Assembly: GCA_945885625.1 (NCBI GenBank)
Contig: CAMCYS010000001.1
Coordinates: forward strand, 124,001 to 188,000
DNA length: 64,000 nucleotides
Origin: Bifidobacterium breve
GTDB taxonomy: Bacteria > Actinomycetota > Actinomycetes > Nanopelagicales > Nanopelagicaceae
Direction of reading: 5' to 3'
Shown in pieces: positions 1-55,834 of the stretch. Under the pieces are notes generated by a model. It saw only the letters and a list, made by a program, of their open reading frames with translations, was not told the DNA's origin and searched no databases. The position numbers were made by a program, and so were the translations under genes. Positions within the stretch are counted from its first letter, which is position 1, and every line of letters begins with the position of its first letter.

Positions 1-558
1 TGGAAGACCGGCATCTTCGAATTTCTTAGCCCAGACAGGGTCTGATGCGATGAAGACCGGAAGTGCGTTAACAAAGGCACATCCAGCATCAATTGCGCAT
101 TGCGCGTAGTACTTGGCAGCTGTTTCAGAACCTACAGGTAGGTAACAAATTAGCACATCAACTTGTTCTTCCTTAAGGACTGCTACGACATCAACTGCTG
201 GCGCATCTGACTCTTGAATCGTTTCGCGGTAATACTTGCCAAGACCGTCGTTTGTAACGCCGCGAAGAACTGGGACACCAGTCTTAGCTACCTCACTAAA
301 TTTGATGGTGTTGTTCTCACTTGCCCAAATGGCATCAGCTAAATCTAGGCCGACTTTTTTAGCATCAACATCAAATGCTGCAACGAATTTAACGTTGCTG
401 ATGTGATAGTTGCCAATGGTTGCATGCATTAGGCCAGGAATTTCCTGATCAAGGGCTGCATCTTTGTAGTAGGTCACGCCTTGCACCAATGAGTTAGCGC
501 AGTTTCCTACACCTACGATTGCTACTCGGATATCGCCTTTACCGGTTGTGATATTCAC
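1..558 (-). CDS. ino1: Inositol-1-phosphate synthase, N-terminal part (runs off the window)
   Basis: Converts glucose-6-phosphate to myo-inositol-phosphate using NAD, the first committed step to phosphatidylinositol and mannosylated inositol lipids in actinobacteria. Only 186 N-terminal codons are inside the window. Residues 15-23 read VGVGNCANS, the glycine-rich nucleotide-binding motif of the actinobacterial family. The start is a GTG at 558 with a GAGG Shine-Dalgarno just upstream. The padR stop lies at 560, so the two genes are practically abutting and probably share one transcript. PimB', which uses the resulting lipid, is encoded near 10 kb. The C-terminal half lies outside the window. 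Confidence 0.93.
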
Positions 559-559
559 G

Positions 560-1090
560 TTATTTCCTCTCGGTTTTGATCATGTCTTCCAGCCAAACAA
601 TTTCTCGTTCTGCTGATTCAAGAGAGTGACGTCGCCACTCCTCTAGGTATTTATCGATTCCGATTGGCGACTTCTCTAGCTCGCCTCGCAAAATCTCGGC
701 CTTCTCTTTAAGACGTCGGTGACGTCCTTCCAAAATTCGAACTCGGTTAGTTGTTGAAGTTGGGCTAAAGAATGCGAAGCGAACTTCAAATCCTTCATCT
801 TCCCAAGTGTCCGGGCCAACGGTGTCGGTTAGCTTTTCAAAACGTTCTCGCCCTTTTTCAGTAAGCCCATAAACAATTCGCGAACGCCGTGGGGCTGCTG
901 CCTCGGTAGATTCCTCAATCAAACCGGCGAGCATCATTCGCTTTAATTGTGGGTAGAGCACTGAGAATGAGAGCGCCCGAAAGGGCCCATAGATCGCTGT
1001 TAGGCGCTTACGCAGTTCATAGCCATGCAGGCTGTTCTGCGAAAGAAGCCCGAGGAGGGCGAATTCGAGTGATTCACTACGTGAGCGCAC
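560..1090 (-). CDS. PadR-family transcriptional regulator, probably controlling ino1
   Basis: This 176-residue protein has an N-terminal PadR winged helix (roughly residues 8-85, with [20 protein letters not shown] and GLTEKGR) and a C-terminal helical dimerisation part ([11 protein letters not shown] near the end). The start is GTG at 1090, preceded by a strong GGGAGGGG ribosome-binding site. A PadR gene next to ino1 is a conserved actinobacterial arrangement that I recall from mycobacteria. Here padR lies directly upstream of ino1 on the same strand, so autoregulation would also control inositol synthesis. The upstream region holds an unusual array of four 13-bp-spaced repeats that is a good candidate operator. 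The ligand is unknown. Confidence 0.85.
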
Positions 1091-1112: not shown

Positions 1113-1159
1113 GATATATCTAATGTATATATCCATTTTATATATCTATGCGATATATC
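1113..1159 (-). promoter_or_regulatory. Four-copy 13-bp-period repeat array, candidate PadR operator
   Basis: On the minus strand the octamer GATATATC or GATATATA occurs four times, occupying 1159-1152, 1146-1139, 1133-1126 and 1120-1113. The starts are exactly 13 bp apart and the 5-bp spacers differ in sequence. A degenerate fifth copy (GATA...) may sit at 1165. The array lies 23 bp upstream of the padR GTG, where the promoter must be. Regulation by PadR is inference. Confidence 0.6.
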
Positions 1160-1263
1160 GATGCGATAGTTAAACCGATTTTACGCCTGAGCGCAACCTG
1201 AACACGCTCAATTTGGGGGTTTCGAGATTTCTGAGAGCTCGCCGTGTGACCCATGCGACTTAC

Positions 1264-1275: not shown

Positions 1276-1923
1276 ATGGTAATTCCATCGCGACTGACTG
1301 AATACATCATCGCCGCCATGATAATTATCCTGGCTCCAGGCCCCAGTGTCCTCTTTGTCATAGCACGAGCTATCGCATGGGGCCGCAAAGTTGCTGTTGT
1401 AACTGTGGCCGGGAACGTTACTGGTGCATTCGTTCTCTCGTCGTTAGTGGCATTCGGTTTAGGTCCAATTCTGCAGCGTTCTGATTTAGCATTCGCTGCT
1501 GTTCAATGGGGCGGCGGCCTATATCTGATCTACCTTGGCATTGATGCGATACGTAAGCGAAAGATGCACGCGGCAGATATGACTAATCAAGGTCCGATTG
1601 AACCTAGAGTTTTTCAATCTATTCGTGATGGCTTTATGGTCGGAGTCCTAAATCCTAAAGGTTTAGTTTTCTACGCAGCCGTCTTGCCACAATTTATAGA
1701 TCGCGATCGAGGCAACGTCACTGGGCAATTACTTTTTCTTGGCGCTTTGTTCTCAGTTCTTGCTTTCTTCAGCGATGGCAGCTGGGGCTTGCTCGCCGGA
1801 ACTGCACGTGCATGGTTAGCAGGGGACGCGAGTAGACTGGAAAAACTAAGAGCTACCGGAGGTTGTGTGATGATTCTTTTAGGTGCGTCGGTAATTCTTT
1901 CAACTGCAACTGGCCTCCTATGA
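1276..1923 (+). CDS. LysE/RhtB-family amino-acid exporter
   Basis: A 215-residue integral membrane protein of the LysE superfamily, which exports amino acids or related small molecules across the cytoplasmic membrane. The family signature is clear near the N-terminus (IIILAPGPSVLFVIARAIAWGRK, a hydrophobic helix followed by the conserved glycine-proline stretch), with further hydrophobic helices around residues 40-60, 70-90, 120-140, 150-175 and 190-213. Length is normal for the family. The stop overlaps the next start as ATGA at 1920-1923, so the downstream nuclease is translationally coupled. Substrate cannot be told from sequence. Confidence 0.85.
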   Translation: MVIPSRLTEYIIAAMIIILAPGPSVLFVIARAIAWGRKVAVVTVAGNVTGAFVLSSLVAFGLGPILQRSDLAFAAVQWGGGLYLIYLGIDAIRKRKMHAADMTNQGPIEPRVFQSIRDGFMVGVLNPKGLVFYAAVLPQFIDRDRGNVTGQLLFLGALFSVLAFFSDGSWGLLAGTARAWLAGDASRLEKLRATGGCVMILLGASVILSTATGLL

Positions 1924-9408: not shown

Positions 9409-10533
9409 CGCAGCGTACTTACCTGCCCAAATTTCCCAGCGCCAATTCTCAATAATCCAAGCTCTGCCATTAGCGCCCATAACCGCGCAAAGTTCCGGGT
9501 TATTGAGTAACTCGATACAAGACTCGGCAATTTCAAAAGTATTTGTGCCGTCAACTACAACACCAGTCTCCCCGACTAGTACAGCATCTGGCGCACCGCC
9601 AGATTTTCCGCCGACTACCGGTAATCCGCAGGAACTAGCTTCGAGATAAACAATGCCAAGACCCTCTACTTCTAGACCAAAGAATCGTGAACGCGAAGGC
9701 ATAGCAAAGATATCCCCGAGACAGATGTAGTTAGGAAGGTCGGCATAGTTAATGCGCCCGATAAATGTTATGCAATCGGCAACTTCTAACTTAGCTGCTA
9801 ACTTTTCCAAGTACTTTTGATGCGGCCCGACTCCGACCAAAACCAAATGAACGCTAGGTGTTGCGGCTTTGATTTGCGGAAGTGCCAAGATCAGTTTGTC
9901 TTGGCCCTTGCGATGAACTAATCGTCCCACGCTAATTATCACCGATTTATCGGTTAGTCCTAATTGGGCCCGCAATTGACTAGAGTCAGTCGGAACGAAA
10001 TGATCTACATCTATGCCAGGTGCGATCTGAACCAACTTATTTGTATCACTCTTGCTTAGCGCTTTACTTATTTCGCCCTTGGTGTAATTACCTAAGTAGG
10101 TAATCGCATCAATTTCTTTGCTCATGTATCTAATGGCAAAAGAAAATGGCGGCACTTTTGCCCACCAAACTTCATGGCCATGAGTGAGGGCGACAATCTT
10201 TTGCGCACCCGCCTTACGCATTGCTCTCGCCATAACGCCTAACGGTGCAGCGGCCCCAAAGGCCACTCTAGATAGCTTGCGTTCTCTAATAATTCGCTGA
10301 CAAATTTTTAGCACTCGCGGCGTTGGCAAAAGTATCTGGCTTCGGTCACGAATGACTTCAACGCCGTATTCCTGTAACCAATTAGCATCAAATTCCGACG
10401 TATTTGATTGAGCGCTTGTGTAGACAATAACCGAACCTTTCGGTAAGCGTTCAATTAGGCCATGCACAAAAGTTTCAATTCCACCGGCTCTAGGGCCAAA
10501 GTCATTGGTGATAAAAAGTGTGGTCGCCGCCAT
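9397..10533 (-). CDS. pimB: Phosphatidylinositol mannosyltransferase PimB' (GT4)
   Basis: Transfers mannose from GDP-mannose to phosphatidylinositol monomannoside, on the cytoplasmic side of the membrane. The 378-residue protein has the N-terminal acceptor-binding GPRAGGIETFVHGL near residue 14, a GT-B fold with VGRLVHRKGQDKL in the middle, and the donor site FFGLEVEGLGIVYLEASSCGLPVV with the family E(x7)E motif. I chose the ATG at 10533. A GTG at 10536 overlapping the NlpC gene stop (TAGTG) is equally possible. It sits directly downstream of the cell-wall hydrolase. With ino1 and pgsA in the window it supports mannosylated inositol lipids in the envelope. Confidence 0.88.
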   Translation of the reverse strand: MAATTLFITNDFGPRAGGIETFVHGLIERLPKGSVIVYTSAQSNTSEFDANWLQEYGVEVIRDRSQILLPTPRVLKICQRIIRERKLSRVAFGAAAPLGVMARAMRKAGAQKIVALTHGHEVWWAKVPPFSFAIRYMSKEIDAITYLGNYTKGEISKALSKSDTNKLVQIAPGIDVDHFVPTDSSQLRAQLGLTDKSVIISVGRLVHRKGQDKLILALPQIKAATPSVHLVLVGVGPHQKYLEKLAAKLEVADCITFIGRINYADLPNYICLGDIFAMPSRSRFFGLEVEGLGIVYLEASSCGLPVVGGKSGGAPDAVLVGETGVVVDGTNTFEIAESCIELLNNPELCAVMGANGRAWIIENWRWEIWAGKYAALLA

Positions 10534-55366: not shown

Positions 55367-55834
55367 TTACTTCTTCTTCTTCTTTGCTGCTGGCTTCTTC
55401 TTTGCAGGTGCCTTCTTGGCAACCTTCTTCTTAGCTGCTGGCTTCTTAGCTGCAGCCTTCTTCTTTGCAGGTGCCTTCTTAACAGCCTTCTTTGCTGCTG
55501 GCTTAGCAACTGGCTTTGCTACAACTACGACTGGCTTTGGAGCTGGTCCTAGCTTGCGCTCGCCTGAGATTGCATCCTTAAGACCCTTTGCAGGTAAGAA
55601 GCGAGGCTTCTTCATTGCTTTGATCTTGATTGTCTCGCCAGTAAATGGGTTACGACCCATACGTGCCTTGCGATCAACCTTCTTGAACTTGCCGAAGTCA
55701 TTGATCATGACATCTTCGCCAGCAACCATGTTGCGAACGATTGTGTCAAAAATAATGTCTACTGCGTGTGAAGCTTCTTTCTTGCTGCCGTTGAAGTGTG
55801 GGGCCAACGCGGCAATGAATTGTGCCTTATTCAT
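55367..55834 (-). CDS. hup: HU-type nucleoid protein with Lys/Ala-rich histone-like tail
   Basis: The 155-residue protein begins with the HU fold (MNKAQFIAALAPHFNGSKKEASHAVDII, DFGKF, GRNPFTGETIKI) over about 95 residues. A 60-residue tail of KKAA, PAKK and KKKK repeats follows, as in mycobacterial HupB. It packs and bends DNA, and the tail binds more tightly. ATG preceded by AAGGGG, with a TAGCGT -10 (55857-55852) giving an 11-base leader. It lies between leuD and the plsC operon. Confidence 0.93.
   Translation of the reverse strand: MNKAQFIAALAPHFNGSKKEASHAVDIIFDTIVRNMVAGEDVMINDFGKFKKVDRKARMGRNPFTGETIKIKAMKKPRFLPAKGLKDAISGERKLGPAPKPVVVVAKPVAKPAAKKAVKKAPAKKKAAAKKPAAKKKVAKKAPAKKKPAAKKKKK

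Follow-up and report, generated by a model that had tools for sequence, protein, structure and literature searches.

In the portions of the literature available to us, the operator given for the PadR family is ATGT-N8-ACAT, the two elements being 10 bp apart in lmrCD (PMC5428041, PMC3506622), and for the PadR-type regulator LmrR, loading of two dimers on a single operator has been reported (2:1), with QacR and DtxR cited alongside it (PMC5428041). The described protein of most relevance here is NapM of M. tuberculosis, which is Rv0047c (PMC10501769) and is represented by entry 8JXK (PMC13340245). According to the same partial texts, loss of NapM in M. smegmatis led to a rise in ino1; 1,512 genes changed in that study, so direct action on ino1 is not established (PMC13340245). 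Under zinc excess, MSMEG_6903 (padR) and MSMEG_6904 (ino1) were found to fall together, by -5.50 and -4.58 fold (PMC7174638), and zinc, directly or not, is on that basis a candidate signal for padR-ino1. The LacI-type regulator IpsA also regulates ino1, and the authors of that work suspected that the PadR is involved as well; the inositol synthesis in question feeds phosphatidylinositol lipids and mycothiol (PMC3899939). In a redox network, Rv0047c is additionally reported to have many targets, with the highest out-degree (PMC10501769).

Regions bound by NapM are the subject of a study (Sarkar 2021) that PMC10312376 cites. Term searches of the available text of PMC13340245 and PMC6377630 found no operator for NapM. 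Our wider literature search for an operator of NapM or its orthologues, which was mostly at the level of listings, found none, and the motif described below may already be in print. Searches for PadR regulators with tandem direct repeats returned no papers, and searches with the octamer strings themselves returned noise.

The window, by which we mean the whole 64-kb stretch of DNA that was analyzed, carries near its start a padR gene and an ino1-type gene on the minus strand, and a repeat array in the 185-nt intergenic region upstream of padR. The parts of this locus, in window coordinates, are:

1 to 558, minus strand: ino1-type gene, running past the window edge and beginning one base after the padR stop
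560 to 1090, minus strand: padR, 176 aa, assigned as the NapM/Rv0047c orthologue; PF03551
1096 to 1103, minus strand: Shine-Dalgarno-like GGGAGGGG, preceding the padR GTG, by direct reading
1113 to 1120, minus strand: accessory half-site D, GATATATC, the terminal copy
1126 to 1133, minus strand: accessory half-site C, GATATATA, one 13-bp step past B
1139 to 1146, minus strand: half-site B, GATATATA, right half of the conserved operator
1143 to 1155, minus strand: operator core TATC-GCATA-GATA, matching the conserved TATC-N5-GATA
1152 to 1159, minus strand: half-site A, GATATATC, palindromic, left half of the conserved operator (operator in 144/144 order regions)
1165 to 1172, minus strand: degenerate upstream half-site, TAACTATC, one 13-bp step upstream of A, overlapping the predicted -10
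1167 to 1172, minus strand: predicted -10, TAACTA, weak by consensus, from conserved columns
1191 to 1196, minus strand: predicted -35, TTGCGC, from a conserved TTG block ~36 bp upstream of the operator
1276 to 1923, plus strand: LysE-family gene, divergent, sharing its intergenic region with padR

The regulator carries a PadR domain (PF03551, 57.9 bits against a cut-off of 27, E 1e-15), and residues 8-175 of its 176 aligned with 8jxk (E 1.4e-44). Near full-length similarity and an adjacent ino1-type gene, the two features by which membership in the NapM orthologue group was judged, were both present, and at the sequence level the protein is orthologous to NapM of mycobacteria (Rv0047c; MSMEG_6903). 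The name ino1-type comes from the label in an earlier reading of the window made from its letters (the sequence-only reading) and from synteny with Rv0046c-Rv0047c; a Pfam search with the fragment at 1..558 gave no match. Close relatives among the named records include some labelled Candidatus Planktophila or Nanopelagicaceae/Nanopelagicales, which makes a freshwater actinobacterium of this kind the probable source of the window.

Read on the minus strand from 1172 to 1113, the region upstream of padR is TAACTATC-GCATC-GATATATC-GCATA-GATATATA-AAATG-GATATATA-CATTA-GATATATC. Direct reading of the pattern thus places four GATATATM octamers in 1113-1159, at a step of exactly 13 bp. The sequence-only reading had given their starts as 1159, 1146, 1133 and 1120 and had described variable spacers; all four octamers were found at those places, and the three 5-bp spacers between them (GCATA, AAATG and CATTA, in order) do differ around a constant step. 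Both end copies are perfect palindromes and can be read on either strand, a point absent from that reading. Half-sites B and C finish in TATA and not TATC, so that neither the B-C nor the C-D pair matches the conserved core in both of its halves. The end of the array lies 22 bp upstream of the padR GTG.

An array of this kind could in principle be a product of chance in AT-rich sequence, as the array is 79% A+T compared with 52% for the window. Six octamers occur in the 64-kb window and 9/100 shuffles reached as many, so their number alone is within chance. What argues against this origin is the spacing: four copies at one period (any 8-mer, with ≤1 mismatch to the first copy, at periods of 9-20) were seen in 0/3000 dinucleotide shuffles of the 185-nt intergenic region and in 0/3000 shuffles of its AT-rich 75 nt. 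Together with conservation of the operator in upstream regions across the order and class (below), these shuffles led us to reject chance or low complexity, the probability of which we place close to nil, and they uphold the earlier claim that the array is not random AT-rich sequence. Only one other place in the window passed the four-copy test, at 55397-55450 (CTTCTTTG, period 15).

To examine relatives of the locus, we used two sets of upstream regions. In the order of the window genome, padR was found in 218/296 genomes and upstream DNA was read for 144 of the 218. TATC-N5-GATA occurred ≤300 nt from the padR start in all 144 of these regions compared with 30/2880 dinucleotide shuffles. The order consensus of the operator was GATATATC-GAATC-GATATAT, in which the columns are partly selected as the operator was placed in each region by best score, with the shuffle controls scored identically. 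Pairs of GATATATC-like octamers (≤1 mismatch) were spaced by 13 bp in 79/144 regions, by 12 bp in 1 and by 14 bp in 2. Other peaks of pair spacing, at 25 bp (34), 26 bp (13) and 38 bp (19), reflect a site at -25 and third copies, both considered below.

The class set comprised 99 regions from outside the order: 35 of 80 named loci, 24 further loci and 40 that were fetched. The remaining 45 named loci (67-84% identical) are closely related to the order set and were excluded; the named records that were kept include Streptomyces, Nocardioides, Cellulomonas and Sanguibacter. GATRTATC-N5-GATAYATC at a score of at least 13/16 was found in 97/99 class regions against 2/1980 mononucleotide shuffles, and exact TATC-N5-GATA likewise in 97/99 against 6/1980 dinucleotide shuffles, counts that are non-independent, with some close kin and with L243 and L337 apparently from the same genome. 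Two loci, L242 and L243, are labelled Candidatus Nanopelagicales though ~49% identical, and "outside the order" follows the grouping used for this genome set. The full 21-bp score also reached at least 13/16 in 79/80 named loci, which overlap both the order and class sets. The two class exceptions to the 21-bp operator were G053 (score 9) and G039 (score 12). The G039 protein is nearly identical to 8jxk, and its upstream region keeps TATCG-N3-CGATA, a form present in 6/6 upstream regions fetched from family f4 (G039 and five others), which we took as the mycobacterial family based on two of its six proteins having been matched to 8jxk. A trend was seen between the recognition helix and the outer operator bases, SFSV with A in 39/45 and SYGS/SYGT with G in 17/33, and it is confounded by kinship.

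Overall, an inverted repeat stands upstream of the regulator's own gene in 144/144 order and 97/99 class regions, and these comparisons make a strong case for assigning TATC-N5-GATA to padR upstream regions as an operator. The comparison with related genomes that had been proposed for this array therefore shows the repeat kept and its 13-bp spacing mostly kept (144 order and 99 class regions). The array is very probably bound by PadR itself. Some other regulator might bind it, for instance a regulator of the divergent LysE-family gene (1276), which uses the same intergenic region. We regard this as quite improbable given that the operator precedes padR in nearly all regions examined, at varied distances from the start codon, the padR side being the one surveyed.

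The order alignment also showed conservation outside the operator, with a block of TTG at about -36 and T-A--T between about -13 and -9 of the operator start (-13 T in 129/144, -12 A in 107/144 and -9 T in 123/144). From these columns the padR promoter can be provisionally placed, such that the operator would start about at the transcription start. A generic sigma-70 scan called neither the padR -10 nor the -35. The array had been said to sit over the probable padR promoter, and the conserved promoter-like columns support that position, for a promoter that is itself predicted. The degenerate half-site on the predicted -10, TAACTATC, forms TATC-GCATC-GATA with half-site A, and the two together are a 3-mismatch match to the full pattern (contig C1 125152-125172, which is 1152-1172 of the window). 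A further GATATATC-like half-site was seen at -25, between the promoter boxes, in 53/144 order genomes of eight genera. In this window the -25 half-site is degenerate (GTAAAATC, 3 mismatches), and part of genus g34 has a second TATC-N5-GATA at that position.

With the repeats mostly downstream of the predicted start, and with end copies able to pair, we also considered whether they might act as structure in the RNA leader. The fold z-score was -0.64 and 44/200 shuffles folded as well, and there was no Rfam match at the gathering score. RNA structure or a known RNA family is thus unsupported, and we judge this role for the repeats highly unlikely.

The number of half-sites varies among relatives. 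Counted at exact 13-bp steps with ≤2 mismatches per half-site, the chains in the 144 order genomes contained one half-site in 17, two in 105, three in 15, four in 5 and five in 2. The array had been contrasted, as a four-copy array, with the single inverted repeat usual for PadR. The extra copies are borne out, with at least three half-sites in 22/144 genomes, and the idea of an alternative to the inverted repeat is not, as A and B together are a TATC-N5-GATA inverted repeat. By sequence comparison, C and D are lineage-specific accessory half-sites beside the class-conserved A+B operator. All eight genomes with a PadR at least 98% identical have at least three copies, four in the window genome (G000) and G218 and three in the other six closest genomes. 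The segment TAACTATCGCATCGATATATCG is identical in 8/8 of the closest genomes, the spacers further down vary, and the terminal copy (the equivalent of D) is kept in 8/8, with its last base different in two. Constant half-sites and phase with varying spacers would be expected under selection on the half-sites and their phase but not on the spacers.

Most extra copies lie in 13-bp phase. In the order, accessory half-sites occurred at +26 in 21/144 regions (reached in 0/500 shuffles) and at +39 in 6/117 (5/500), and there was no excess at +52 (1/55; 282/500 shuffles reach it). A competing peak at +25 (14/144) indicates that the step following B can differ from 13. In the class, the counts at +26, +39 and +52 were 19/82, 7/79 and 4/69, and 0, 0 and 1 of 500 shuffles reached them; the neighbors of +26 were nearly empty, with +25 in 1/82 and +27 in 1/81. 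The denominators at +26, +39 and +52 shrink with short leaders. Extra half-sites in a fixed phase, by which a multi-dimer operator might be recognized, were found as the +26 and +39 peaks, with the minority +25 peak in the order, and on these counts 13 bp is the usual step, although a minority of order regions have a 12-bp step. A +26 copy is seen in five genera of the order and nine families of the class, as well as in named records of Streptomyces, Nocardioidaceae and Propionibacteriales. Arrays of GATACATC-like half-sites at 13-bp steps were also observed before orthologous padR genes in L271 (Streptomyces zagrosensis), L325 (G339), L315 (G324) and L313 (G322).

These data bear on whether only A and B matter, with C and D retained as neutral products of slippage or of AT-rich drift in the 5' leader. 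In favor of this, most order genomes have two half-sites (105/144), and C and D both lack part of the core. However, +26 copies recur across these genera, families and named records and exceed 500/500 shuffles in both sets, spacers change while half-sites stay, and the terminal copy persists in every close relative. We consider neutrality of C and D unlikely, though it is the most serious of the alternatives.

We think it probable that the array serves as the operator through which the padR(napM)-ino1 operon is autoregulated, lengthened by 13-bp units for tighter or cooperative binding. A PadR dimer would recognize the inverted repeat TATC-N5-GATA formed by A and B; bound there, from about the transcription start and directly downstream of the -10, it would block the promoter. 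Autorepression would lower inositol-phosphate synthesis too, because padR and ino1 appear to form a single operon. The M. smegmatis data cited above, on ino1 after loss of NapM and on the joint fall under zinc excess, agree with this reading. In this lineage the site would have grown by whole 13-bp units, namely C, D and the degenerate unit on the -10. Added PadR subunits would bind beside the first, covering the region from the promoter to the ribosome-binding site, and the extra units would make repression of padR and ino1 tighter or sharper.

By arithmetic, assuming 10.5 bp per turn, 13 bp is ~1.24 turns, so that each half-site is turned by about a quarter of the helix relative to its neighbor, and every second one (26 bp) is on a nearly opposite face; dimers on the array might lie side by side or overlap. 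The extra copies are better read as direct-order single half-sites than as full inverted repeats because B and C end in TATA, and that such half-sites would add contacts is the weakest step of the explanation. Nor are extra copies required, since chains of two half-sites are the norm (105/144, with 17 more having one octamer). Cooperative protein binding had been suggested for the array. A protein-binding array is supported by conservation of the operator before padR, and its cooperativity is plausible.

The genome of the window (1,442,484 bases; completeness 90.75%) was scanned for operator patterns. The two-copy pattern in its exact form occurred only at the array, as three overlapping matches, and its reversed control had 0. 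For the full 21-bp pattern the array was the best place in the assembly, with 1-2 mismatches, and the next sites had 3. For the 15-bp core, a site at 270428 had 1 mismatch and the array 2, with 7 matches compared with 5 for the reversed control, so the core is near background. Neither the 270428 site, at the ends of two convergent open frames, nor a site at 9537, inside a long open frame, looks promoter-like. Further matches were to the core at C10, C17 and C23 and to the full pattern at 117494 and 384629. PadR may have targets beyond padR-ino1 in this genome, and the many targets reported for Rv0047c in the text available to us (PMC10501769) count against a purely local autoregulator.

Absence of the genes gave another view of the operator. 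Among 20 order genomes picked by padR presence or absence, an ino1 match was found in 10/10 with padR and 0/10 without it. The ten genomes in which both padR and ino1 were unmatched (G184, G185, G186, G189, G001, G002, G200, G254, G258 and G260) belong to the window's genus, and four of them are single-contig at 99% completeness. This suggests that padR and ino1 were lost together, as an inositol-synthesis cassette, within one genus. An exact operator match was absent from all ten padR-less genomes, with single-mismatch matches in G185 and G254. In the padR-bearing ten, of which six are listed, the operator was exact in G188, G190, G219 and G266, had 1 mismatch in G183 and had 2 mismatches in G014, at padR. 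As a control for the operator, the padR-less genomes are suggestive.

A broader and decidedly speculative hypothesis, which we hold to be doubtful as it stands, is that PadR proteins of the NapM type act as sequence-specific autorepressors, nucleating on TATC-N5-GATA and then spreading sideways along half-sites phased at 13 bp. Copy number would then be an evolving dial on the shut-off of inositol synthesis, and the nucleoid-protein behavior reported for mycobacterial NapM would be the non-specific tail of this spreading. The autoregulatory reading itself proposes a concrete class-wide DNA target for NapM, a protein described, in the portions of the literature available, mainly as a general nucleoid protein. 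It ties that target to inositol synthesis and through it to phosphatidylinositol lipids and mycothiol (PMC3899939, in part). Operators of 2 to 5 copies, as they occur naturally, would also allow the effect of copy number on repression to be measured.

Compared with described PadR-family operators (LmrR, Bacillus cereus PadR), the site here is alike in being an inverted repeat at the regulator's own promoter, and its class form, GATGTATC-N5-GATACATC, likewise contains ATGT and ACAT. The distance between these elements is 11 bp in the class form, in contrast to 8 in the canonical operator and 10 in lmrCD (in the available part of PMC5428041), and the ATGT-N8-ACAT spacing was accordingly not found, with ATAT in place of ATGT/ACAT in this window. 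The most constant part here is instead the inner TATC/GATA, and the window has extra 13-bp units. With NapM (Rv0047c/MSMEG_6903) the locus shares an orthologous protein, the padR-ino1 gene order and, in 6/6 f4 regions, TATCG-N3-CGATA. NapM is described in the available literature as a nucleoid-associated protein or DnaA antagonist (PMC13340245, PMC6377630). With LmrR, QacR and DtxR the likeness lies in more than one dimer per operator, within the PadR family in the case of LmrR (PMC5428041, in part), dimer loading on the window array being our proposal. The LmrR type has one site with two dimers, whereas here whole 13-bp half-site units have been added.
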